Assembly (NCBI GenBank): GCA_023053545.1
Contig: JAKZAN010000006.1
Coordinates: 10,696,351-10,760,350 of the forward strand
Length of the DNA stretch: 64,000 nt
Source: Lepidurus packardi
Taxonomy: Eukaryota; Arthropoda; Branchiopoda; Notostraca; Triopsidae
Direction: 5' to 3'
Positions within the stretch are counted from its first letter, which is position 1. Each line of letters begins with the position of its first letter. Under the pieces are notes generated by a model. That model was not told where the DNA came from, made no database searches, and saw only the letters and a program-made list of their open reading frames with translations. The position numbers and the translations under genes are program-made. Shown piece by piece: positions 5,868 through 62,172 of the stretch.

Positions 5868-7050
5868 CTGCATTTCATTTACATTATACGAAGTTCCACG
5901 TGCATTGTAGACAAAGCAAAGCTTCGTCGTTAGTTTACTCTTTTTTTCTCGCATATACGACGTGACCGATGAGTTGTTGTTACTTTGACTAATGCATTTG
6001 ACACTCAACCTAAAGAAGGAACTGCGGGATGCTGGAAAATCAAATCGGGGTTTAGAAACTTCAGGAACATGCCGAGAAAACTTGTGAGGACCTCGGGAAC
6101 CAAGGCGTCATTTAAATTAGCGCATTGGCTTCGGTTGATTCATAACTAGGGATCCCGGATTCGAGCGCAGACCCCTCGATACTTCGATTGTAGGAAAACT
6201 GTAATAAGAAAGTGCTGTAACTAAAGAGTAATATCTAGGGCTGCGTCTCTCCGACATCTATATTCAATATCTAATGGTTCGCAGGGGACAGCCTACGCGT
6301 AACTGTAGAAACGGTTCGTGTCGTCCTCTGGCCTCGGTTTTTCGCCCTTTAAATACCCCCAAAAAGCGCTAAAAATTGTAGTACACAAGCCTTTCTTTTC
6401 GACGACACGGACGAAACTTTAACAAAGTTTGTGACGAGATTTTTTAGCAATTTTGATTCTTTCTTTGAACCATCTAGCAAGAAATTTCTACAGGTGGCGC
6501 AAGTTACTGATACGGTAGAAGTAATCACTTTGAACGAAAAGGCTAGAAAATGTTGTCATGTGAGGGTGTCCGATGTTAGCTCCATAACACCTATGCCTAA
6601 TCCTATAGAGCTGGACTAGTTTATGTAAGTTTATATGACAGTATCCGCTGGGCGTATGTTTGAAATTTTTCTATAGGACAAGTAAGGAACAGGCGAAACC
6701 TGATTCTAACCAAGGTCATTTTGCGAGGTAATCCGGAATACGCTTAGTGGGGAATCCCTTCTAAACTCCCCAGTCAAATGAGCAGATTATTCCATTGATT
6801 GACCAGCTGCTTCAATTGTTTGGGGAATTTAGAAAGAATATCATGGTGAGAATTTTAATTTTATAGATTTTCTAGTTTGTTACTTTTGTTCATTTGCAGA
6901 CAATAAACTGTAATTTTCTTCCTAATATCATGTTTTTATTTTTATTACATAATAAACAGTCTACCTATATGTACACATGTAGGTAGATATTTCCAATTTA
7001 CATTTATTAGAATCGCCGCTTAATAGAATCAGTATTCAATTGTTATTGCG
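5868..7050. other. Spacer with a possible retroelement scrap
   Basis: No gene is recognised with confidence. A 62-codon plus-strand ORF (6431-6619) reads like the C-terminal beta-barrel tail that follows integrase in some LTR-retroelement polyproteins (pattern ..VTDTVEVITLNEKARK..HVRVSDVS). That resemblance is weak and no other retroelement part adjoins it. A 12-bp-stem hairpin with a 4-base loop sits at 6960-6987. Confidence 0.3.
6960..6987. repeat. Hairpin, 12-bp stem and TACA loop
   Basis: Arms 6960-6971 and 6976-6987 are complementary with one G-T wobble and are separated by four bases. There is no obvious promoter or run of T beside it. Function unknown. Confidence 0.4.
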
Positions 7051-8594
7051 AGATGAAGAATACCTTAAAAATATGGACCGCCCTCTGGATTTTTTCTTGT
7101 AACATTCTCAAGACGTTCGGTTTACAGACGAGTATGACGAAAATTAAAATGCCTTACACCATAATCCACACATCTGTCACGATGCTCCATTCTGACCAAC
7201 CACAAAAAACGAAGGTCACTACTTTCAGGATCCACGACACGCCCATCAAAACAAATATGCGAAAGGATGTGAACAGCCTGATACAAGGAACCACATTAAT
7301 TGAAATGAGCTTTCTTTGTTTTAACTTGTAAGAGTTTAATGGTATACCGATTGCGGACGTATTTCTTGGGGACGTTGGCTGCAGTTGAAATGTTGTAGTA
7401 GCAAGTAGCGGCCCAGATGAAGTTTATGGTGTTCAGACTTACGAGGATACCGATAGGAACGTAGAAATATGTAGCTAGTTCTGTGTAACCTTTTTGGAAA
7501 ATCTTTGGTTAATTCGAATGTAAAAAAAAAAGAAACATTATCCTGCAGGGTAGGCATTCTTCACTCGCTTACCTGCAAACCAGCATCGTAGTTGACCAAA
7601 CCTGGGTTTTATTACCCATAGTGGGAGTTCTTCTTCGGGGTACCATCGAATAAGTTGCGTAATCCCCTCGAGAAGTAAGGGAACACCCCAACCGAAGACT
7701 GAGTAGTACATACATTTGCGAAGTTGCTTTCCGCCGCTTAGTTGCGTAGTCTGGATGTGTCTTGGTTTTTGAATGAACAAGCTTAGTCTCGGGATGAAAT
7801 AAGAAGAGAAGAACTTATGTTACCTGAACATTTTCACCAGGTCCAGGGATATTATTGTCATCCATGTAAATGCCGCGAGGAAGAAGTAGTGCGTAAAACT
7901 AGCTAGCAACGAAAGTCAGATTATTTGTTTGGAAAAGAGATTTAGATAGGAGGTTATACTGTACCAAGAATAACACAATCGGTATCGGACAAGTGACTTC
8001 CGTGATGCTGTATGTAGCCCATTCCGAAGTACATTGCGCTCATGGAGCCCACTAAACTCATTGTGCTCATGCTACGTTGTTTTTCACGAAGTTTTGCGAG
8101 AATGATGTAGACCAGGAAAGTGGCCCCCAGAAAGCCAGCGGAAGTGAAAATGAACCAAGGGTAGATTTCTAACGCAAGCAAATTGTGCTTGCTGTCTTCC
8201 GGTTCGCAAAAGTACGCTTTAATCTGTAAAGGATGGGAAAAACGACACGAAAGTATTAACCTGCATTAAAATCCAACTTTTTCTTCGGATTCAGTAAACC
8301 AAAGGAATTACGGTTGGTTCGCTGCCATCTTTGATAAAGTATTCAATGCAATACTCAAGAATTTCCTTACTTTTATTCATATGACTAGGCGCCTTTAAGA
8401 GTCCGGAATCTTTCAGCACGTAGAAATCATTTCGGTTTTGTACCAAGGAAATGCCCATTACGTAACTTCGGCATGAAACGTCATTTCCTATGGGAAAATG
8501 GATGGCTAAGTAATCTGTTGTGAGGGAAACGTCGCCGTATTTGTCCATGAACCGAACGGGCATGTCAGGAATTGCAGAACAGAAGACGGGTCTG

Positions 8595-8654
8595 TTGTTG
8601 TTGATATTGAAGTTGAAGATGTTGATGTTGAAGATGTTGATGTTGAAGATGTTG
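8595..8654 (-). repeat. 15-bp minisatellite inside the receptor reading frame
   Basis: The unit GTTGATGTTGAAGAT is repeated, with slightly degenerate copies to the left. On the minus strand it reads as Asn-Ile-(Asn/Phe) repeats in frame with the receptor ectodomain that follows, so it looks like an in-frame expansion or junction filler next to inserted DNA. Confidence 0.6.
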
Positions 8655-8697
8655 TGTCTACACTTAGCAGAGTAGTTGACTGGATCTAAGTGATTAA

Positions 8698-8816
8698 CAC
8701 TCTGGTTAGTGAACCAGAGTGCGCAGCTATATATACGAGACTACCGAACTCGCAACTGTTGTGGGACCAGGTTGACCTGATCCCACAAGGGCCGCAACAT
8801 GTTTGGAATGCGAGTT
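8698..8816. repeat. Nested hairpin segment inserted in the receptor copy
   Basis: There is a perfect 10-bp stem (8698-8707 with 8712-8721, loop AGTG). A second hairpin has 11-bp arms with one wobble (8761-8771 with 8776-8786, loop TTGA). The second is itself enclosed by AACTCGCA (8747-8754) and its complement TGCGAGTT (8809-8816). The segment interrupts receptor homology and has no coding potential. A small foldback element is the likely explanation; no target-site duplication was identified. Confidence 0.45.
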
Positions 8817-10029
8817 ACAACACTATGGGTCAAGATGGGTCAAGATCATGACAGGGCATTTCACTTAACGTTAGATTTTCGAATTTTTCGCATGAACCCG
8901 CAGTGCTATTTATGAAGTACCCATCGGAACAACACCTTTTGATGCAGGGTTTTTTTGCACAAGGATTACAGACTTTAGCCATAAGCGGGTAGTTTTGTAG
9001 TTCTTGTTGCTCCGTGAAGTTGGTTTCGCTTTCTAACTCATCGATGCAGTATTCGTCATAATTAAATCGGCCTTTCATTATCACGGTTGGGTCCGTAATT
9101 GACAAGATTGATGCAGGGAGTACTTTCAGGTTCTTTGAATTATTCGAATTCGCGTATCCCACAATCCTCATTAGTTCGCTTCCATTGCATTGAATGTCCT
9201 TGTTGGGAAATTCTTCGACGTAGGTAGAATTTAGTAAGTAGTAGGTATCAGTCGAAATGGACCAATAAGGAATATGTAGAGAGGTGTTGCGATTCCTGGC
9301 TTGAACAGATGGCAGCGTGCAATTGCCGTTGGAATGCAAAACCTGGCCAGCTGGACAACATTTTTGGATGGATACTTTGAATTCTAAACAAGCAACTACT
9401 ACAGTGCTTTGGATAATGCTGTCAAAATCAAAGCAAAACTTGTGCGTACTGAGGGAGATGTTTTGTGATATTTCGTGTATAACCAGTTGCCCTTCTGCTA
9501 AGGTAAAGTTGTCCTTGTTAATTTCAAAAACTTTCATTTCAGTATGTTCTGGGCAGATGTTGCCGTAAATGATTTCGATGTTTTCCGGATCAGAAGTGGT
9601 GAAGCTGCGTAGTATCTTTTCGTTAGTAATAGCTTGTTCGTCATCTAGATGTCCATCTGTAACGGATTGATTGAGTTCGCATAAAGAATACGCATCAGTA
9701 TCGAACGTGGAACCCATAGGACAACACTTGGGGTAACAATTTGTCGTATTGCATTGTGTTGGTATTGTTTGTTGAGTGTTTTCAGGTTGGGATCTGCAGA
9801 TTAATGCGCGCGGTTTCGCCTAAAGAAAAGGTAATTTAATTTAAATTGAACTGTAGTGTAGGATTGTAGTTGTACCCTCTCGTGTGAGTCACTTTGAAAG
9901 GCCTTGTCTATGCAATACTCGGAAATAGGGATTGGATTGTCTCCGTTTTGGACAACTTCTGTTGTAGTCACTTGCTAACACTCGGGTTACTATTAAAATA
10001 TAAATTAGTGTAAACCAGTGCATTCTCAT

Positions 10030-10757
10030 TTCGGAATATATTTTCTTATAACTTCAAACACAAAATTTAACTGATTACAGCCTCGAAATCAGCCTATATC
10101 AGTAAGCCCTTGAGTGTACAGTAGGCTACACGAGCTTCACTCGACCAAAATGCTTTTCAACTGAACTGCCTCTGTAGGGCGTTTATAATGTTACAAGGGT
10201 CCAGAAAACCCACAAGTTCGCGTCTCTGCCAGCAACTGTTTTTTGGTCATTAAAATGCAAGATGAACCTCGGATGCAAACTCGCATGGCAACTGTTTCGA
10301 ACCTTTACCACCGAGGAAGGTCTCTGCGTACACTTTTAAAACTTCCCCGCACAACAGATTTATTACCGGATCTGTGGAACATTGGGAGACTGGAGTTAAT
10401 GTATAAGTATTCCCTCTATCATATTAATATCATATACATTACAAAAGTCAATTAATGACAGCTGTGATGACAGAAGTCATAGCCAATATTAACGTCGCAC
10501 TATGTAAGCCTATATTTTTGCCGTGTCCACTTTTTGCAATGGGTTGGGCGTATTGGACATACAATCTTTTGACTTTCAAGCAATGCGCTTCCTGATATTC
10601 ATTGGAACCTGTAACCCATTATTGTCAGTAATAACCTTAAACCGACACATTTGCCCGATATATTAGGGGACGTTTATTTCTTCTATCGATGGAAGCTTTG
10701 CCATGCTTAGCAATCTATATACAGACAGGAGTTCGTGAATAGTTTAATTACTATTAA
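10030..10757. other. Non-coding region containing the source of a 456-bp repeat
   Basis: No gene is recognised. Bases 10290-10745 recur at 14694-15149. The first about 230 bp are essentially identical and the remainder carries roughly twenty differences. The identity of the repeated sequence is unknown. Confidence 0.6.
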
Positions 10758-10958
10758 CAGAAAATTACAACAGACCAATTCCAATCCGCCCAAAGTATCG
10801 TGGAGGATATTCTGATCAGCCGTCCAGCCCAGGAGACATTGCCAATGGCACTACCGAAATTTGCCTCCCTTGTTCGGCTAACCAACAGGGCTAGGGAACA
10901 GCAAAGACCAAAACACCCAATGGCCCTGGACTTCGACCTACTTGTGGATCATGTACCA
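10758..10958 (+). pseudogene. Fragment resembling a FLYWCH/MULE-type transposase protein
   Basis: The plus-strand frame reads a segment of about 67 residues with the layout seen between the FLYWCH finger and the MULE domain in metazoan Mutator-like proteins: a short 'SIVEDIL' helix, 'LPKFASLVRLTNRAREQQRP' and 'DFDLLVDHVP'. The frame ends exactly where the hAT terminal repeat starts at 10959, and no continuation is found on the far side of that element. Assignment is by pattern memory only. Confidence 0.4.
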
Positions 10959-13419
10959 CAGGGGTCGGCAACCTTTTACCCAACGCGGGCCAGAACAAAT
11001 GCATGGAGGGTAGTGGCGGGCCGGATTAATCCTTTGAACTACTAATTCAAAATTCAGCCGTAATAAAATTTTGGAGGATCAGGAAAGATGTTTATTTAAT
11101 CCGAAATGTGCTTTATTGGAAGAATTGTCTGTATTTTCAATTTAAAGAGACAATAAGTTCAGTGCATTGCATTACTCTTATAATGGGTTCGATATTCGTT
11201 TTAACATAGATTTGACTTAGTTGAACTAGAATTAATGTGACGCTTGGTGCTGTTTGGCAGCTGAAAGTTTCTTCATATCACACGACATGCCAGACGATGC
11301 CAAGTGCAGTACGTCGCCCAAATGCTCGTCAGTAATTCGATTTCTCAAATGATTTTTTGTGTGTTTCATTTTTGAAAACAATTGCTCACACACGTAAGTG
11401 CTACCGAACATTGATGCCATCCTTTTGGCGTAATTAGTTAAGTTCGGGTGACTCCCGGACTCAAGAAGATACTTCTTGTAGAAATCTGTTAGTGGTACAC
11501 CACCTGCATTGAATTTTGATTTCAACACATCATTACATTGCAACTCAATGAGCTCCATCTGAATATTATCCGGAACGTTATTTACGTCGACATCAAAAGG
11601 TGTACTAAACATCCTGAAATCGACTACGTGTGATCGGAGATCAGCAAAACGTGAGGCAAACTCGCTTTTTAGAGTGCGGATCACTGCCACAAATTCGCAG
11701 CTTTCTTTTGGGTTTCTTTCCGCGAGTGTAGGAAAATGCGAATAATTAGACTTCTCAAGCTGGTTTTCCCACAATCGAAGCTTTGTTTCGAATGCAGTAA
11801 CGTGGCTCCACATTTCATGGATCAGTTGATTTTTTCCTTGAAGCTGCAAATTCAGGCTGTTCAAATGCCTCGTTAGGTGGACTAGAAACGCGAGGCTTGA
11901 AAGCCACGTTTGATCCCGAAATTCTTTGGCGTTCATGTTTTTGCTCTCAAGAAAGCCAGCTATTTCTTCACGGAGGGAATACACTCTTCCTAGCATAGCA
12001 CCACGACTAAGACAACGAACATCACAGTAATAAAGTAAGTCTCCATATTCATTCTCCGATTCGGACAAAAGTGTTCGAAATTGACGATGATTTAAACCCC
12101 GAGACAAGATTACATTGACCGTTTTTACAGCCACGTCCATTACTTCATTCAGATTCGATGTTTTGGCACACAGTGCTTCCTGGTGTATGATGCAGTGTAT
12201 CTTTGTGACATCGTGAACGATTCCGAGGCCTTCCATATGTTTCCTAAGTAAGGCCACGACGCCTTTATTCTGTCCGACCATAGCCGGAGCTCCATCGGTT
12301 GTTACGGACACAAGCTTTGTCAAGTCCAAATCGAGATTCGAAAAACACTGAAGCAATGCTGCCAGAATGTCCTCTCCTTTGGTAGTACCCTTCATAGGTA
12401 CCAGTTGTAGGAATTCCTCGACAATTTCGAAGGTTTCAGTAACTCCGCGTATAAATACTGCAAGCTGTGCAGTATCAGTGGCATCAGTGCTCTCATCAAG
12501 GGCTATTGAGAAGAACTGAAATTCCTTGCAACTCTTTCTTAAATTGCTTTTCAGGTCAGCTGATATTTCTTCAATTCGTCTCGTAACGGTTCTCGCCGAA
12601 AGGCTTACATTTGAAAAAAGATCCTTTTTCTCCGGACATACTATGTTTACAACGGCCATCAAACACTTTTTTACAAAATCACCATCTGTGAAGGGTTTCA
12701 TTTCCTCTGCTATAAGTTTTGAGACAGCAAAACTCGCACGTGTGTTTTTCTCAGATTCTGATTCTTAAATACCAAGCTTTGCTTTTGCAGACTACGACTG
12801 AGTTTAGCAATTTCGTCTTTTCTTAGTTGACCGGTAAATTCAGCGTGGTTAGAATGATTAGCCTCGTAGTGTCGCTTGATGTTGAACTCTTTATGAACGG
12901 CAACACTTGCCTGGCAAATGAGACATATAGGTTTTCCGAAATGCTGGACAAAGAAGTATTGATCAGTCCAGCACTCTTGGAAATTGCGACATTCGGTATC
13001 AACTTTTCGACGCTTTGCTGACATTTTCCCAGAAAGTGGAAGAATTTGCTACAGTATCACAGAAAGTTGGCTACTTTACTATCACGAAAGTGAAGCACAA
13101 CGAGGCGAATCCACTATGAATAGCCGCAGAACGCGAACGTGGCAGCGTCAAGCTAAAAGTGGAACTGGAACAGCGAAATCAGTTCAAAATGCTAATAGTA
13201 GGCTTCACGGGCTACACTGCGCTGAGCAGACTAGACTAGGGTTGGATTCAGATGTTTTGCGAAAATCTTTTTAAAGGAACGACGTAGTCAAAACTTATAT
13301 ATTAGTTTATAAGGTACCGCGGGCCGGATGCATGTAATATTTCACCCGTGGGCCGCGGGCCGGATAAAATGGGCTGGCGGGCCGGATTCAGCACGCGGGC
13401 CGTAGGTTGCCGACCGCTG
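10959..13419 (-). mobile_element. hAT-family DNA transposon, 2.46 kb, near-complete
   Basis: The ends form 16-bp terminal inverted repeats: 10959-10974 (CAGGGGTCGGCAACCT) and 13404-13419, complementary with one mismatch. Several GGGCCGG-type subterminal motifs lie inside both ends, as is usual for hAT elements. It contains a minus-strand ZBED5/GTF2IRD2-like transposase. The flanking octamers ATGTACCA (10951-10958) and TTCTACAT (13420-13427) both fit the nnnTAnnn target preference of Buster-type hATs but differ from each other. The two flanks also belong to different sequences, so the element's ends have been recombined or its surroundings rearranged since insertion. Confidence 0.85.
11232..13024 (-). 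pseudogene. hAT transposase (ZBED5/GTF2IRD2-like), one frameshift
   Basis: The N-terminal part (13024 down to about 12765) has a BED-type zinc finger: CLICQASVAVHKEFNIKRHY followed by H. The C-terminal part (about 12760 down to 11232) carries the transposase core (FSIALDESTDATDTAQLAVF, SVTTDGAPAMVGQNKGVVAL, IHCIIHQEALCAK) and the hAT dimerisation block (RMASMFGSTYVCEQLFSKMK, HLRNRITDEHL). The two parts are in different frames; the shift falls near 12765 in AATCAGAATC. Apart from this single base the protein of about 590 residues appears complete, so the element is young or the shift is an assembly error. Domesticated relatives of this family exist in vertebrates, but the intact terminal repeats here argue for a plain transposon. 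Confidence 0.82.
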
Positions 13420-13643
13420 TTCTACATCTTCAGATTTTCAAGTACTTTTTCGCTTCCGGTTTGGATAGAATTTCTTCCGCCAGTCGTTCTGCATGTCTTC
13501 CTTGTCCTTTTTTATTTTTGTAATCACTCCTTGATCAACACCATTCTTTTCAGCAATTGATACTTTATTTCGTTCTTGTCCAAGAGGGATACAACTTCAA
13601 CTCGCAAGGCTAAAGCTAGACTTGAGCACTTCTTCCTAGACAT
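13420..13643 (-). pseudogene. N-terminal fragment of a pogo/Tigger-type (CENP-B-like) transposase
   Basis: On the minus strand an ATG at 13641-13643 opens MSRKKCSSLALALRVEVVSL, followed after a one-base shift by an HTH-like stretch (VSIAEKNGVDQGVITKIKKD) and KFYPNRKRKST. This is the typical N-terminal layout of CENP-B/Tigger DNA-binding domains. The reading stops at the hAT boundary and no catalytic DDE part follows on the other side. Broken by the frameshift and by truncation. Confidence 0.42.
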
Positions 13644-14508
13644 TTTTCTAAAAAAGACATTTTTCTTTGAAATGTGTACGTTATTTACGTTGTGAATCTG
13701 TCCTTTCTCGAATAGAAGAGGTTTTCTGAGGTTTGTAGACCTGTTCTGAAAGGGGAAATCATCTTTCAGAACAGGTTTACATCAGTGCGAGGCTCTTCCG
13801 ACATCCCTTCCGCGTCCAGATAAGCTCCACAGCTAAACAAGATATGGTCAGTTGAGGCCTCAGCTCGGGAAGAACACTACAAAAAGCAAAAGTGTTCAAA
13901 GCATTTTCTTTTAAAAGAATTTTAATTCGTTCATATGCAGCTGCAAGTTGATAATACAAACCGGATTTCTTGGATCACTGAAAATGCTAACAGGTATACT
14001 TAAAACACTTGCAGCCTTTTTAGTAATCCTACAAGCTGGAAAAGGAACTCCCAGAAAAGAAACTCATCCATGTTTGAGTTATTTCGGCAGTCCCAGGTAA
14101 TTCTGAATGCAAAAATGGGAGAAACTGGTCACGTGTTTTTGATGCACACAACTTATTCTTATAGTTATTTTTACAAATACTTCGAAGAAGGAAAACGAGG
14201 TCCATGCGCGAAAGACCAGATATTCTTGCCTATTCCCGATGATCTCGATAAAACTCTTCTGCAAGGAGGGGCACTGGGATCAGAGGATGCTTTTGCCGCT
14301 GAAGAACTAAATGAGCTGGACACACAAAATCATACCAATCTGTTAAATGATGAGGCAAACTCTGATAATTATAATTGCCAGAAAGGTTACTGTGTGTGGA
14401 ACGACCCACAGCACCCATGCCACGGTCTTCCTGCCAATCAGCGTTATTCCAATGAAACAAAGCTCTGTCACACTTTAGGTTTCCAAGAGCATTGTCCAGA
14501 GAGACAAA

Positions 14509-14616
14509 GTAATTCTGAATGCAAAAATGGAAAAAACTGGTCACGTGTTTTTGATGCACACAACTTATTCTTATAGACATGTTTTAGAATACTTCGACGA
14601 AGGAAAACGAGGTCCA
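14509..14616 (+). repeat. Mosaic segment 1: copy of 15216-15323
   Basis: 108 of 108 bases are identical to 15216-15323. It contains a complete 68-bp intron (14509-14576) plus the first 40 bases of the following exon, then breaks off inside the GPC codon region. Confidence 0.9.
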
Positions 14617-14621
14617 TAATA

Positions 14622-14694
14622 AAGAATACCTTAAAAATATGGACCGCCCTCTGGATTTTTTCTTGTAACATTCTCAAGACGTTCGGTTTACAGA
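14622..14694 (+). repeat. Mosaic segment 2: copy of the methuselah-like TM7 region (7057-7129)
   Basis: 73 of 73 bases are identical to 7057-7129, the TM7/C-terminal part of the decayed receptor, in the same orientation as the source. It begins six bases after the end of segment 1. Confidence 0.92.
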
Positions 14695-15149
14695 ACTGTT
14701 TCGAACCTTTACCACCGAGGAAGGTCTCTGCGTACACTTTTAAAACTTCCCCGCACAACAGATTTATTACCGGATCTGTGGAACATTGGGAGACTGGAGT
14801 TAATGTATAAGTATTCCCTCTATCATATTAATATCATATACATTACAAAAGTCAATTAATGACAGCTGTGATGACAGAAGTCATAGCCAATATTAACGTC
14901 GCACTATGTAAGCCTATATTTTTACCGTGTCCACTTTTTGCACTGGGTTGGGCGTATTGGAGATATAATCTTTCGACTTTCAAGTAATGCGCTTCCTGAT
15001 ATTCATTGGAACCTGTAGCCCATTATTTTCGATAATTACCTTAAAATGACACATTTGCACGATATACTAGTGTACGTTTATTTCTTCTATCGATGGAAGC
15101 TTTGACATGCTTAGCAATCTATTTACAGACAGGAGTTCGTGAATAGTTT
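14694..15149 (+). repeat. Mosaic segment 3: copy of 10290-10745
   Basis: 456 bp matching 10290-10745 in the same orientation. It abuts segment 2 with a single shared base. Identity is near perfect over the first half and clearly lower over the second, ending at AGTTT on both sides. Confidence 0.92.
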
Positions 15150-15195
15150 CAAAAAGCATACCGAAAAAAAACAGGGAGATTAAGGATGGTTCAGC

Positions 15196-15640
15196 ACTTA
15201 TTTCGACCCTTCCAAGTAATTCTGAATGCAAAAATGGAAAAAACTGGTCACGTGTTTTTGATGCACACAACTTATTCTTATAGACATGTTTTAGAATACT
15301 TCGACGAAGGAAAACGAGGTCCATGCGCGAAAGATCAGATATTCTTGCCTATTCCCGATGATCTCGATACAACTCTTCTGCAAGGAGGGGCGGGCACTGG
15401 GATCAGCGGATGCTTTTGCCGCTGAAGAACGAAATGAGCTAGACACATAAAATCATACCAATCTGTTAAATGATGAGGCAAACTCTGATAATTATGATTG
15501 CCAGAAAGGTTACTGTGTGTGGAACGACCCACAGCACCCATGCCACGGTCTTCCTGCCAATCAGCGTTATTCCAATGAAACAAAGCTCTGTCACACTTTA
15601 GGTTTCCAAGAGCATTGTCCAGAGAGACAAGAGTTTTATG
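15196..15640 (+). repeat. Second copy of the secreted-protein exon 1 tail, intron and exon 2
   Basis: Parallel to 14081-14508: it contains the tail of exon 1, the 68-bp intron (15216-15283) and exon 2. Relative to the first copy it has a 4-bp insertion in the GGGGC run near 15388 and a CAA-to-TAA change near 15448, so this copy cannot encode the domain. It continues at its 3' end into unique downstream exons. Confidence 0.85.
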
Positions 15641-16262
15641 CGCAACTTGAAGAACCCTTGACACGCTTTACGGCGACTGTGACTGTTTCCCACTAGAGGA
15701 ATTCTGGTTCGACCCGAATGACGGTAACTGCTACTTACCCTTTAGTCAAGTACAAATATATTTCATATTGTCATTTACCGTTTAATGTTTGGGTGCTTTG
15801 TAGGGATCTTGCCTTGATAGCCAGTGATTAACAATCAATCAAACAACGGGAAGAGCGGAATGCGAAGCCGAACCTTGCCCAAACGATGGAAAACATGTGT
15901 ACTGGGCAGAAGGCTCTCAGAAGTGCTTTCTTCGCGGAGAAACAGGTCCATGCGATCACAGTTCGGGACAGGCATTAGGATATTGGACTTGGGAGTTGTC
16001 CAATGCATTAAATATTTTGTCTTTGTTCCCCATTTTACCTCCTACGCTTACCGTCCGGCTTTCGATTACGGTGAGGGTAGTAGTTTCTTCGATGCTTCTC
16101 CTATGAGACATTTTAACATTAGGAAGACAGTTACCAGTTCTGAACGGCGGAGATACTGTTGGCTCTAAACATACTTCCACATCTTGCTGGGCTAGTAGAA
16201 ATGTAAACTTCAACCCGTGCGGCATAGGACATTTTTCAAAAGCCTTCAAAGCTTGCGTTTAA

Positions 16263-18654
16263 AATGTTTCCTTTTACGGTACTTAAAAACGAACAAGAAT
16301 AGTGTTTTCTATATATCGCGTATAGCTTTTGTAAAAAGAAAGAACTTTAGTTTCCTTTTAACTTCTCGATTAGCTAAACACCTTACAGCCTTCATTACGC
16401 AGACCTTAGTTTTATACGGAAATACAACGACAGCTGATGTATGAAAATATCTGCAATGTCACATACACTGTTCAGTTTTAATTGGACACCAATCGAGACT
16501 TTCTCTTTAAGTTAAAACTGAAAATTATCAACCATACCCTCAACTCATGCAAAATAAGCTACTGAAACAAGGGGGTCACATACTTCTTATAACCAGTTCC
16601 TCATAGCAAAACAGCGATTTGCCTTTTTATATCCTCTCTCCTTAAAATGGCAGAACCAGTGGGACTTTCTCTATAAGATAAAACTGAAAGTTATCAACCA
16701 TACCCTCAATTCATGCAAAATAAGCTATTGAAACAAGGGAGTCACACACTTCATATAACCAGTTCATCATAGCAAAACAACGATTTGCCTTTTTATATCC
16801 TTTCTCTCCTCATTCTTTTGGCCTGGACTCCATAGCTTACTGGGTAGTATTGTGACGTTAAGTTTAAGGCGTATTTAGATTACAATTAAAACGTCGAGGG
16901 GTCAAAAAGTGGTAAAGTAAAAGGTGTTTATCGATCCTATAGCCAACATAGCCACTAAAAGCGAACTCCATGCAAAGCAACCAGGATAGAATAGAATTGT
17001 ACACCATCCTGATGCCAACGTGCAGGGGCACTTTGCGTGCGGACACAGTTAAGCATATTTTTTTTTAGCGTCATAATACGATATAGTACAGATAGGTATA
17101 GGTAACCGTGGGGAATTTCGGAACAAGTTTTGGCAAAAAACAGCACAGTTTACCATGACACCATCTCGGAGGTAATATTTTAGTCGTCGTCCTATACTTG
17201 TTTTAACTGTCGGTTTCTGATAATTTTAAATTTTTCGTTTATGAAATTACGATAAATAGTGCAGGATATAGCAAAGGATCATACGGGTCTATCATCAGTG
17301 CCATCTTGTGACAACAATGATCAACTACTTGAAGTATACGGTGGCCTTGTGCCGCTTGTGCTGTGTCTAACCATGTGAACGAAATACGACAGTCCTGACT
17401 TAATCCGTTTCCGCGACCATTAATGCTTTACACTGTTTCGTATAGATATGGAACTTATTGTTTAAAACCCCCAGTTCGACCAACCAACCATATCCCTTTT
17501 GAAATCTAGCCCATTATGAGTCGTAAAACTCAACCGACCGTATCCAGCGATTGCAACCAAGCTAAATCGACGAGTCGAGGGTTATTCCACTTTTAGATCG
17601 CGTAGACATGATCGAAGGTTCCACCAACACTGTATCACACGTCGTTTACTACTCACTTACCTATTCTGACTTTATTGGCAAGTTCTTACCTACATTAAGG
17701 ATTCGAAAGACGTTATTCAAGCTTCAGATGCCAGCAATGAGGTTGAAAACTTCTCTGCGAGACTTCTAAAGGAGGCCTCTTCGGGTTCAATACCGAAAGT
17801 TCGGAACATCTTGCGTCTTTTTCAGAAAACCTTGATTCCAAGATTCAAGTTCTCGTCGCAAAACATGACTTTCTCTAGAGACGAGATCTTTTCCGGCTTA
17901 GAGCACCCCCGATGATTCCATAATAGAGTAGAGAAACGGTTGCAAGGGAGTTTACTTAATTTCATTATCGGTACTGCGTTTCTTGAAGTGACGTAAGTTC
18001 AAGTTTGTATAAAAAGTACATCAAAGTTGACCTTAGAAAAGACTTCTTTTTCAATATAACCTTTATTAAGACAGCATGAAGTTTCATGTACAAGCAACCA
18101 TGAATTGGACACCAGTGCCGGCCAGCGTGCAGGTCCCCCCTTGATCTTTTCTCGTTAACATTCCATGGATCATGGCGAAATCCAGGACTCCATGCCCTTT
18201 TGCATACAGAGGGCGGGATTCTGGCCTTCAACACAAAACGAGTGCAGCAAAGAAATCAAGGGGAGGGAGGGAAAAATCAAATCTAACCCTTGTATCTAAA
18301 CCACACCACCTCCCCTCTGCTTTAAGATTTTCTTTTCAACAATCTTAACACGTTTTTTTGTCGAAACTTACATAATCTTTTCCCCCAAAAATTCAAATAC
18401 GATGTAAAAAGCCTGCTTCTCAGGTAGCCTTTTCCTCCCCCTAAACACTCCAAATAATATAGCTTTAACATTCCAAAAAGGGCCACCTTTCTGAGCTCAA
18501 GTTTAAACCATCTCGAGAATGAAAGAGAACCCAAATTATTTTCGTCGGTGTCCTTCATACGTCTTGCTTTCAGAATTCGCGTAGCGCTATCACTATAATA
18601 CGAATACGTCCATTTGTCTTCCTAAGTTTCTACGAAAGGATGTTCAAAATGTTC
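16263..18654. other. Intergenic spacer and probable 3' UTR of mask
   Basis: No protein gene is recognised. It contains the direct repeat listed separately. TTTATT at 18062-18067 (AATAAA on the minus strand) is a candidate poly(A) signal for mask, about 590 bases beyond its stop. Confidence 0.45.
16497..16809. repeat. Direct tandem duplication, about 147-bp unit at 166-bp spacing
   Basis: 16497-16643 and 16663-16809 match at about nine bases in ten (shared core ATTCATGCAAAATAAGCT or a one-base variant, and GATTTGCCTTTTTATATCC), separated by about 20 unrelated bases. No terminal inverted repeats or coding potential seen. Confidence 0.85.
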
Positions 18655-30000: not shown

Positions 30001-33000
30001 CGGTAGTGGAGATTGAGGAAGGCGGCTCCACCAGTTTCAGCTCTTCTTCAATGTCTTCATCTTCTTCCTCTTCTTCGGTCGTCACTTCTTCGGGCGGATT
30101 CCGTGTTTGCTGCACCTCCGCGGTCACGAAGGGCTGGTCAAGTTTGGTTTTATTGGTCGAAGACCTGGGACCTGTCGAGGTGGAAGCTGTGGCTTGAGTC
30201 GCTATTACCGCCCCTGCCGCTGCTGTACTACCATTGGCTCCGCTTTTGGCTAAGGTTCCTTCACTCTTTCCTCCTACGCACAAGTACAGAACATCTTTAA
30301 CTTCTGAGTAAAATGCTCAGGAATTTAACTCCTGATGTGCTAAAAATTTAAAGAATAGCGGGTAAGACATGAAATCGTTACCTAGGGTGATATTGGGCAA
30401 CGTTCCTGCAGCGGTGGAAGCCGGAGTAGGCGTAGCTGGAGCAGCGCCTTGGGGCTCCAGTCGTCCATGGGGCGGTACCCGAGGGGCAGGCGTTGGTGTG
30501 AGGGGAGGCAGGGCTAAATGGGAGGTGTCTTCTGTCCCCGTAGTAGTCAAACCGACTGCTTGACCTGCTTGGATCCCCAAGGCGAAGGCCTGGGCCGATT
30601 CCGTGGATACCAAGATGGAATTTGGGTAGTCCAACAGCAGCTGCACCACTTGTGTGTGTCCACTTTTGGCTGCCTCGATGATCATAGTTGAGTTGTCCTA
30701 AAGAGCAAGTGAACATCAAAGTTAGCCTTTGATTTTAAGTCGATTCAAAAAATAAAAGTCAGGAATTTCGTACTTTGAGTCGATGGAAGGGGTTGGCGCC
30801 ATGGAGCAACAAAAGTTCCACCACGGCTAAATGGCCTCCAGCACAAGCCAGGGATAAAGGCGTGTGATCGTTCGAAGACGTTTGCCGGTTGACATCGGCG
30901 CCTTTGGCCAACAGGAACTGGACGGTGCACAAATGCCCTGCTCGAGCTGCTTTCATCAACGGTGTTCGACCTCCTTCCGAGACATGTTCCTAGAACAACC
31001 ATGTGAAGTAGAAACCAAACATTCAAACCGATGTCTGACAATAGTTTTAAGAAAATAGTTTTTAAAAAATGCCATCATCGAGTTCTTTTATTTCCCGACA
31101 AGCTGGGAAAATTATCAGCATTTACTTAGCTGAACATTTCATTTCGTCAGGTTTTCACTTGTAAGCTGTTAAGTTACGCCAGGGGGTTACCTGTTGGCAT
31201 CTGACCTACGTCAGAGCTGGCTAGGTCAGGGGGGAGAAAGCCGGGAAAGAGGAGTAGTCGAGTACAGAGAGTTGAGCGAGAGCAAGCGCGAGAGTAGCAG
31301 TAGCCGAGTTGAAAGTAGCAGAGTCGTAGTCAAGCAAGTGATATTTAGATCCATATTATTCCAATCAAAAGTGTACGAGTGTATCAGGCTTTGTACGCTA
31401 AATACAGGAACATTCTGTCATTAACAAAGCTAATTACTATAAAAGTTCCTTTAATTAGCTAGGGAAACATCAGAAGCAACAGTGCTACTTATAGCGTATC
31501 TTCTATCCGAATTAGCTCAACAGAAATCATGCTGTTCGGAAATTGTTAAAGCTTTTCGGGGGGACTATGGTTCAAAAGTAAGAAGAATACCATTTCGAAT
31601 TAAAGCTCCAGTACACCTTAGCTCGGCATAGGCAGTCAACAAGATACATAGACAAAATTCGGAACAAAATTACTCGAAAACCTATTTTTCCTTTAGGACC
31701 AATGTGTGCCATACTTCCGTTTTGTATTGCAAAGTGTGCTAAAAAAGGCTTTTTTAGTCATCTTATTTCACGTTGCAAATTAATTTCCTTTCTTACAACT
31801 TAACCGGTGACTAGACTTTTCTTTTACTAGCTATGGGTTAAACTTTGACGTTAGAAGGGCGTTTCTCATAACTTATCGCTCAACAATGAATCCAGAATCA
31901 CCCCGTTTGAAAGTCAATTGATCACTATCGCCACCTATGAAGCTTAACAAGAGTGCTTTTTAGTAAATAACAAAATTAAAAACAAATGAAACCCAAAGCA
32001 AAATGCCTGCCTATCTTCCTTACAAATTCGATACCAGCTAGCGTTCTGTTTTGGTAAGCATTATATCAATAAAAAGCCATATTTAATAAGCAGATTTTCT
32101 CTCAACTTATCGCTCAACAATTAATGGGAATCACCCCTTTTGAAAATCTGGTTACTAGCGCCACCTATGAAGCTTAAGAAGAGCTACTTTTGGCAAATAA
32201 CAAAATTCAGAACAAGTGAAACCCAAAGCAAAAAGCTTGCACACTTTCGTTACAAACTCGGAAATCAGTACGCCTTACATGTTTTTTTAAGCACCATAAC
32301 AATGAACGGCCATACTGATTGAGCTGGTTCTATAGAAGAGTTATAGATCTAGTGGCGGAATGATTTATCGTCTTCCGGTGTTTTGCACAACGTGCCAAAT
32401 AGGCTACTGCCCTCGCCAGGGCAAAACACTAACGCAAACAAGGGGTAAAAATGAGCATAATCTTACCAAATCCGCTCCATATTGCAAAAGAAGCTCAGCC
32501 ACGTCCGTGTGTCCATTTTCAGCTGCATAGGTGAGCGCGGTATCCCCAGTACCTGTCTGGGCGTGTACATTCGCTCCGGCTTCCAGTAAATAACGCACCA
32601 AATCTAAATGCCCTTCTTGGGCGGCCTCCATGAGTGGAGTCGAAGCTCCCAACTCCAAATCCGCCCCCGCTTTAATTAGAAAGTCAGCCACCTCTAAAAA
32701 GCCTCCACAACAGGCCAAGGTTAAAGCGGTCTCCTGCGTTTCCTCGGTTTGGGCGTTGATATCAGCTCCTATTCCGTGAAAATTTCTATGAAAATCCTGC
32801 AATATCTCAACAAAGTCGCTCTATAAAATCTTTCACACTACGCTCAATCCCCAATCTACCTTTTTTTAAAAAAAAAAATAATCTCTACCATTGCGAAATT
32901 CCTAAAGTCTCGCTATAAACTCAAAACGTTTTAAAAAATGTTCCTCCTTCGCGGTTCGAGCATAAGGTAAGCGAACTTACCTTGGGACAGTAGTAAGGCC

Positions 33001-62035: not shown

Positions 62036-62172
62036 ATGCAGAGCCAGGTTGTCAAGTCGCCTTTTTATTCATTGTTGCCACAGTGAAACCTAACGTCTAA
62101 CCCCATTAATGCAGAGCCAGGTTGTCAAGTCGCCCTTTGCTTCATTGTTTCAACAATGAAACCTAACGTTTG
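62036..62172 (+). repeat. Tandem duplication, about 63-bp unit at 74-bp spacing, carrying SOX sites
   Basis: 62036-62097 and 62110-62172 share ATGCAGAGCCAGGTTGTCAA and GAAACCTAACGT, with a TTCATTGTT site between. In the second copy the site has become a head-to-head pair (62143-62149 and 62152-62158). Confidence 0.85.

Follow-up and report, generated by a model that had tools for sequence, protein, structure and literature searches.

A probable small tandem duplication with two copied tracts at its seam in a methuselah-like receptor and secreted-protein gene cluster of Lepidurus packardi

Introduction

The helq-1 mutants of Caenorhabditis elegans accumulate tandem duplications, which range from ~100 bp to 10 kb around a median of ~1 kb and need polymerase theta (PMC8654963). 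As reported there, microhomology is overrepresented at the joins of these duplications, some of which also carry templated insertions; such duplications are rare in wild-type worms, and "patchwork" is that paper's term for inserts made of several stretches, which it describes at the joins of deletions (PMC8654963). Human rearrangements of the FoSTeS/MMBIR type carry templated insertions, and some of their joins are blunt or have 1–2 bp of homology (PMC5120786). In Drosophila, complex CNV breakpoints contain de novo insertions of up to 60 bp; of 50 insertions, 2 were tandem duplications and 41 matched nothing in the reference (PMC4056370).

Here we analyse a block of rearranged sequence at positions 14509–15149 of a 64,000-nt stretch of the Lepidurus packardi genome (C5:10696351–10760350; hereafter the window, to which all positions without a contig name refer). 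The original prediction, made from the letters of the window, described this block as a recent, three-piece copied patchwork inserted into a gene for a secreted protein. We regard it as a known kind of DNA-repair scar, and as neither a new mechanism nor a new kind of element.

Results

Repeated tracts at the block

We compared the window with itself (self-BLAST of the 64 kb at E 1e-5) and searched the whole assembly (108,557,554 bases in 344 contigs). Five of the eight repeat pairs in the window belong to the block site, and a 94% repeat (14079–14510 / 15198–15634) flanks the block on both sides. The three matches reported for 14509–15149 are real, apart from one 1-bp slip and one overstated identity, and they are not due to chance, since self-BLAST returned E ≤ 5e-32 for each of the three pieces. 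The features of the locus are listed below; P denotes an inverted paralogous copy outside the window, and G1 to G3 denote copies of the secreted-protein gene.

6484–10519, minus strand: methuselah-like receptor gene copy (P-type) containing the 73-bp tract; 37 of the 56 mismatches between 6484–10745 and P lie before 10520
8830–9717, open reading frame within the receptor copy: Methuselah_N domain (Pfam match)
7056–7128, coding strand minus: copy of the 73-bp tract, presumably receptor cytoplasmic tail (73/73)
10290–10745: receptor upstream flank, ~8% diverged from P and from 14924–15149 from 10520 on
10520–14373: diverged "A-type" block in the first copy (spacer, hAT-like element, 5' part of G1), with divergence steps at 10520 and 14373
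10959–13419, minus strand: hAT-like transposon; ends match at 14 of 15 bases (by eye), Dimer_Tnp_hAT in the open reading frame 11232–12701
14079–14508, plus strand: gene copy 1 (G1), ending at 14508; its last 134 bp (14374–14507) equal 15497–15630
14507–14617, plus strand: putative templated insert 1 (G2), copy of 15214–15324 (111/111; 110/111 to P)
14618–14621: filler of 4 nt at the second join
14622–14694: putative templated insert 2, copy of 7056–7128 (73/73)
14694–15191: native receptor-upstream flank of G3, with which the second copy of the duplicated unit would begin; matches an uninterrupted stretch of P at 99%
15192–16637, plus strand: gene copy 3 (G3), right limit approximate; the fusion at 15191 is present at two places in the genome

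Pairwise comparison within the window gave 111/111 identity between 14507–14617 and 15214–15324; the reported pair 14509–14616 and 15216–15323 is exact, and the identical tract is somewhat longer. The stretch 15214–15324 occurs three times in the window, in G1, in the insert and in G3, and P matches the tract at 110/111 positions. The second piece, 14622–14694, is identical to 7056–7128 at 73/73 positions, while the proposed partner 7057–7129 is 1 bp off and not identical. By its reading frame, the tract at 7056–7128 is receptor coding sequence on the minus strand. It was described as a TM7 fragment of a receptor; from the usual receptor layout, we take it to be the stretch just past the last membrane helix, in the cytoplasmic tail. 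Because P also matches this tract at 73/73 positions, the true donor copy is ambiguous. For the same reason, the proposal that all pieces keep the orientation of their source, which is uniform when measured against the window's own copies, is not firm for the 73-bp piece, as the inverted P is equally close. The longest piece, 14694–15149, aligns with 10290–10745 without gaps at 437 of 456 positions (95.8%), with no mismatch in the first 230 bp and all 19 in the last 226 bp, after 14923, so that an identity "at or near 100%" applies to only half of it. One further exact tract was missing from the prediction: 14374–14507 equals 15497–15630 (134/134) and abuts the block on its left.

An inverted paralog contains the third piece but not the two inserts

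A search of the assembly with 14300–15400 returned at least 29 matches. Paralog P (C5:10676455–10670354, minus strand) lies ~34 kb from the block and is inverted relative to the window. Its first part (C5:10676455–10672211) aligns with 6484–10745 at 98.1% and its second (C5:10672662–10670684) with 14694–16635 at 94.7% (35 mismatches plus gaps); the two parts overlap, and the equivalent of 6484–10745 runs straight into that of 15150–17151. P thus holds the receptor gene, its upstream flank and a copy of the secreted-protein gene in one uninterrupted stretch, and is without the A-type block, the 5' part of G1, the 111-bp insert, the 73-bp insert and the second flank. The two loci also form an inverted repeat (6484–10745 / C5:10676455–10672211; ~4.2 kb, 98%, arms ~26 kb apart, patchy divergence), between whose arms gene conversion or inversion could take place.

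At all 19 sites that differ between 10290–10745 and 14694–15149, P agrees with 14694–15149. Because of this agreement (19/19), and because the piece is contiguous with its right-hand neighbour in P, we conclude that piece 3 is the older upstream flank of G3 and not an insert. The idea that three donors, all foreign to the site, were stitched together there fails at this point, since P carries piece 3 joined to 15150 onward; a copied patchwork at a single seam remains the best fit for the two short tracts (111 and 73 bp), though not for the third piece. We also tried, and rejected, piece 3 as a fresh copy of 10290–10745, as its identical half is nearly identical to P too: P shows no substitution against 10315–10519 and one 4-nt gap at 10318–10321. 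Across 10313–10321, both window copies share the state of the receptor copies L017, L018 and L020, and P is derived. The identity of piece 3 is consequently uninformative on recent copying.

The first copy is a mosaic. P and the window differ at 19 positions in the 226 bp of 10520–10745, and their similarity stops past 10745. G1 and G3 differ at several sites up to 14373 and are identical from 14374 to 14507; at 14480 and 14490 they have bases in common that are present neither in P nor in two other aligned copies. The A-type block (10520–14373) may either have been in place already, with the 134 bp then copied into it, or have arrived later by recombination. The hAT-like element within it (10959–13419) has no clear 8-bp target duplication at its ends.

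State of the genes

The block was predicted to interrupt a gene for a secreted protein. Instead of an intact host gene, we found two damaged copies at this place, G1 and G3. G1 is truncated by the first join, at 14508. G3 lacks its upstream part with the putative start, and it has an extra 4-nt frameshift as well as the base change that creates a stop in P. The receptor copy of the window has an in-frame stop shortly before the tail. Pfam searches returned no family for the secreted protein, either with 14070–14576 at E 0.001 or with 14070–14576 and 14166–14507 at E up to 10. Downstream of G3 lies a tandem pair of ~148 bp (16497–16642 / 16663–16810; 92%).

Three joins within 190 bp

The unusual joins number three, at 14507, 14618–14621 and 14694, and all fall within 190 bp. 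The first leads from the equivalent of 15630 to 15214 with a 1-bp overlap between the pieces, the second from 15324 to 7056 across 4 nt of filler, and the third from 7128 to 10290, again with a 1-bp overlap. Laid out in the order of P, the path runs up to 15630, back ~417 bp to 15214, back ~3.9 kb to 7056, forward 3.16 kb from the 7056 tract to 10290, and then onward through G3. The pattern of each of the three joins has a single match in the 108.6-Mb assembly (at most 2 mismatches), and none of them was found there a second time; the older receptor/gene fusion at 15191 has two matches, in P and in the window. Because each join occurs once and the fusion twice, the joins are younger than the split between P and the window, unless P has lost them.

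Such a layout could also come from misassembly or from the merging of haplotypes, the more so as the site is surrounded by direct identical tracts of 111–230 bp and an inverted ~4.2-kb repeat and as the assembly also has contigs with bacterial-looking polymerase A genes. However, the donors share just 0–2 bp at the three joins, and a misjoin through overlaps or k-mers would need more than that. The contig that contains the site is 12.5 Mb long, and the 144 kb examined have no N. We therefore consider an artefact very unlikely.

Microhomology at the joins amounts to 1–2 bp, 0 bp (plus the 4-nt filler) and 1 bp, compared with a random mean of 0.70, and is thus not above chance, although only three joins enter this comparison. 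For this reason it is the patchwork layout by itself that points to template switching, and replication template switching, polymerase-theta end joining and other end joining would look alike here. The layout agrees with the predicted signature of template switching or synthesis-dependent repair, without separating these mechanisms. Neither the microhomology beyond chance by which FoSTeS/MMBIR is recognised nor the excess microhomology of theta-type duplications reported in PMC8654963 was seen at these three joins. The clustering of all three within 190 bp may point to one event with iterative template switches.

Age of the seam and possible stepwise origins

Outside piece 3, 318 bp are identical, which bounds the divergence at 0.94% (95%); with the identical half of piece 3 added, the figures become 548 bp and 0.55%. 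The proposed recent origin draws on the 318 bp outside piece 3, and gene conversion could also have kept these copies identical. Divergence between P and the window is patchy, which suggests gene conversion and weakens any dating by the identity of the pieces.

Deletions alone would turn a repeated module into the series G1, G2, receptor tail, upstream flank and G3, and more copies of both gene and receptor exist in the cluster and in the genome. The block could accordingly be a remnant of receptor-gene modules that were duplicated by unequal exchange and then reduced by three deletions to islands of 111 and 73 bp between G1 and G3. We hold this to be unlikely: it needs three deletions and ~3 modules while 318–548 bp kept zero mismatches, three random deletions leave two islands of ≤120 bp in 0.3–1.1% of placements (under a crude uniform model), and no second place in the assembly has any of the joins.

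We also scanned 144 kb for comparable patchworks (matches of ≥40 bp at ≥97%, both directions counted). Among the 32 matches listed, adjoining ones with different donors occurred as six pairs at the block site, as three pairs in one simple tandem array and nowhere else in the 144 kb. These counts are an undercount and not a base rate, as two tracts of the site itself, the one of 134 bp and the identical half of piece 3, escaped the scan, presumably because both extend into diverged sequence and so fall below 97%. The gene cluster has a second inverted pair (C5:10656285–10657955 / 10665291–10666956; 1.67 kb, 97%), and the window contains further short tandem pairs at 31862–32081 / 32096–32314 (79%) and 62036–62096 / 62109–62169 (90%).

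A mobile element might have moved or captured the sequence, for example by an insertion of 14618–15213 between 111-bp direct repeats. This is suggested by a direct repeat that resembles an over-long target duplication, by the hAT-like element in the first copy and by match limits that receptor copies have in common at 6484 (L019, L023, L024), 10517 (L017, L018, L020) and 15191 (L022, L025). Yet beyond each limit the other copies still run on in common, which identifies these as breakpoints of the window/P lineage, and we rejected a receptor-bearing element with ends at 6484, 10517 and 15191 on the same ground. Moreover, 14618–15213 is mostly native flank in P, and to our knowledge the target duplications of common transposons are far shorter than 111 bp. 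A repeat search of 13900–16400 for element ends or a typical target duplication gave, apart from the 111-bp direct repeat, a single inverted pair, which is a short palindrome in G1. Mobile-element activity is thus a highly improbable source of the block.

Candidate repair genes in the assembly

DNA_pol_A matches at C3:8443195–8444475 and HTH_61 matches at C3:8448840–8449205 lie on the same strand, 4.4 kb apart; one stretch of each has an internal stop, in a search that ignores introns. Going by domain layout, we assume that this pair is what would be expected of polymerase theta, and a theta-like gene appears to be present in the genome. A separate HTH_61 match (C4:4880130–4880378) may, on a similar assumption, be HELQ. 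Two more DNA polymerase A matches, at C52:134880–136019 and C129:27759–28883, have open frames of 955 and 874 codons and look bacterial, and the assembly may include bacterial contigs.

Discussion

We put the probability at roughly 0.6 that the block marks where the two copies of a small tandem duplication meet, with two short templated inserts between them, within a cluster of methuselah-like receptor and secreted-protein genes. The duplicated unit would begin in the upstream flank of the receptor and stop in the middle of the gene copy, with a length of ~930 bp when laid out as in P and of 937 bp in the second copy of the window. Its first copy runs up to 14507, equivalent to 15630, and its second starts at 14694, equivalent to 10290. 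A direct second copy is present, as 14694–15630 corresponds to 10290–10519 plus 14374–14507 when ordered by P, with the direct repeat holding at both ends of the unit only and the interior of the first copy consisting of the diverged block. The seam itself holds short inserts with nearby, identifiable donors (111/111 and 73/73). In favour of a tandem duplication, both tracts that meet at the first join are identical to G3 (134/134 on the left, 111/111 on the right). Against it, the interior of the first copy (10520–14373) is diverged, which calls either for a second event or for an A-type copy that was there before, and the donor and orientation of the 73-bp piece are not firm, given the equally close inverted P. 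Further points against it are the chance-level microhomology, where PMC8654963 reports an excess at duplication joins, and the rarity of such duplications in wild-type worms.

If a tandem duplication is the correct reading, we infer that a broken end would have copied homologous sequence and then failed to re-anneal. It would next have primed briefly on two nearby templates, giving the 111 bp of 15214–15324 and the 73 bp of 7056–7128, before a final end-joining step. The process could have been polymerase-theta-type joining of an intermediate left by failed synthesis-dependent repair, or else replicative template switching. Theta-mediated inserts are typically shorter than 111 and 73 bp, which counts against this reading. 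Because the donors are nearby, the inserts exact and the three joins packed into 190 bp, we favour a single repair event with short copying steps. A single hybrid event in the germline is conceivable though doubtful, in which homologous copying from a neighbouring paralog would have brought the 134 bp into G1, followed by two non-homologous short hops and a return to the homologous flank; if so, the cluster, whose inverted 4-kb copies would go on exchanging sequence, would be a natural hotspot for such repair.

Read as the seam of a tandem duplication, the locus would offer a natural and readable animal case in which a small duplication records at least two short copying steps, and the adjacent paralog without the joins allows these steps to be ordered. 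It would also show how clusters of receptor and secreted-protein genes produce broken, chimeric copies.

Among known systems, the duplication resembles those of C. elegans helq-1 mutants (PMC8654963) in lying near their ~1 kb median and in having seam stretches copied from nearby. It differs from them in that microhomology is at chance, the patchwork sits at a duplication join rather than a deletion join, the inserts measure 111 and 73 bp with one coming from 3 kb away in the order of P, the assembly has a possible HELQ match whereas those worms are without HELQ-1, and the case is a single one in an assembly (PMC8654963). With FoSTeS/MMBIR (PMC5120786) it shares the gain in copy number and the templated seam pieces, 15214–15324 being present three times; unlike those rearrangements, it spans <5 kb in one gene cluster, involves no second chromosome and has no longer microhomology. 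Like the Drosophila CNV breakpoints of PMC4056370, it is a non-homologous seam with added sequence in an arthropod, and it is distinguished from them by the exact donors of both inserts.
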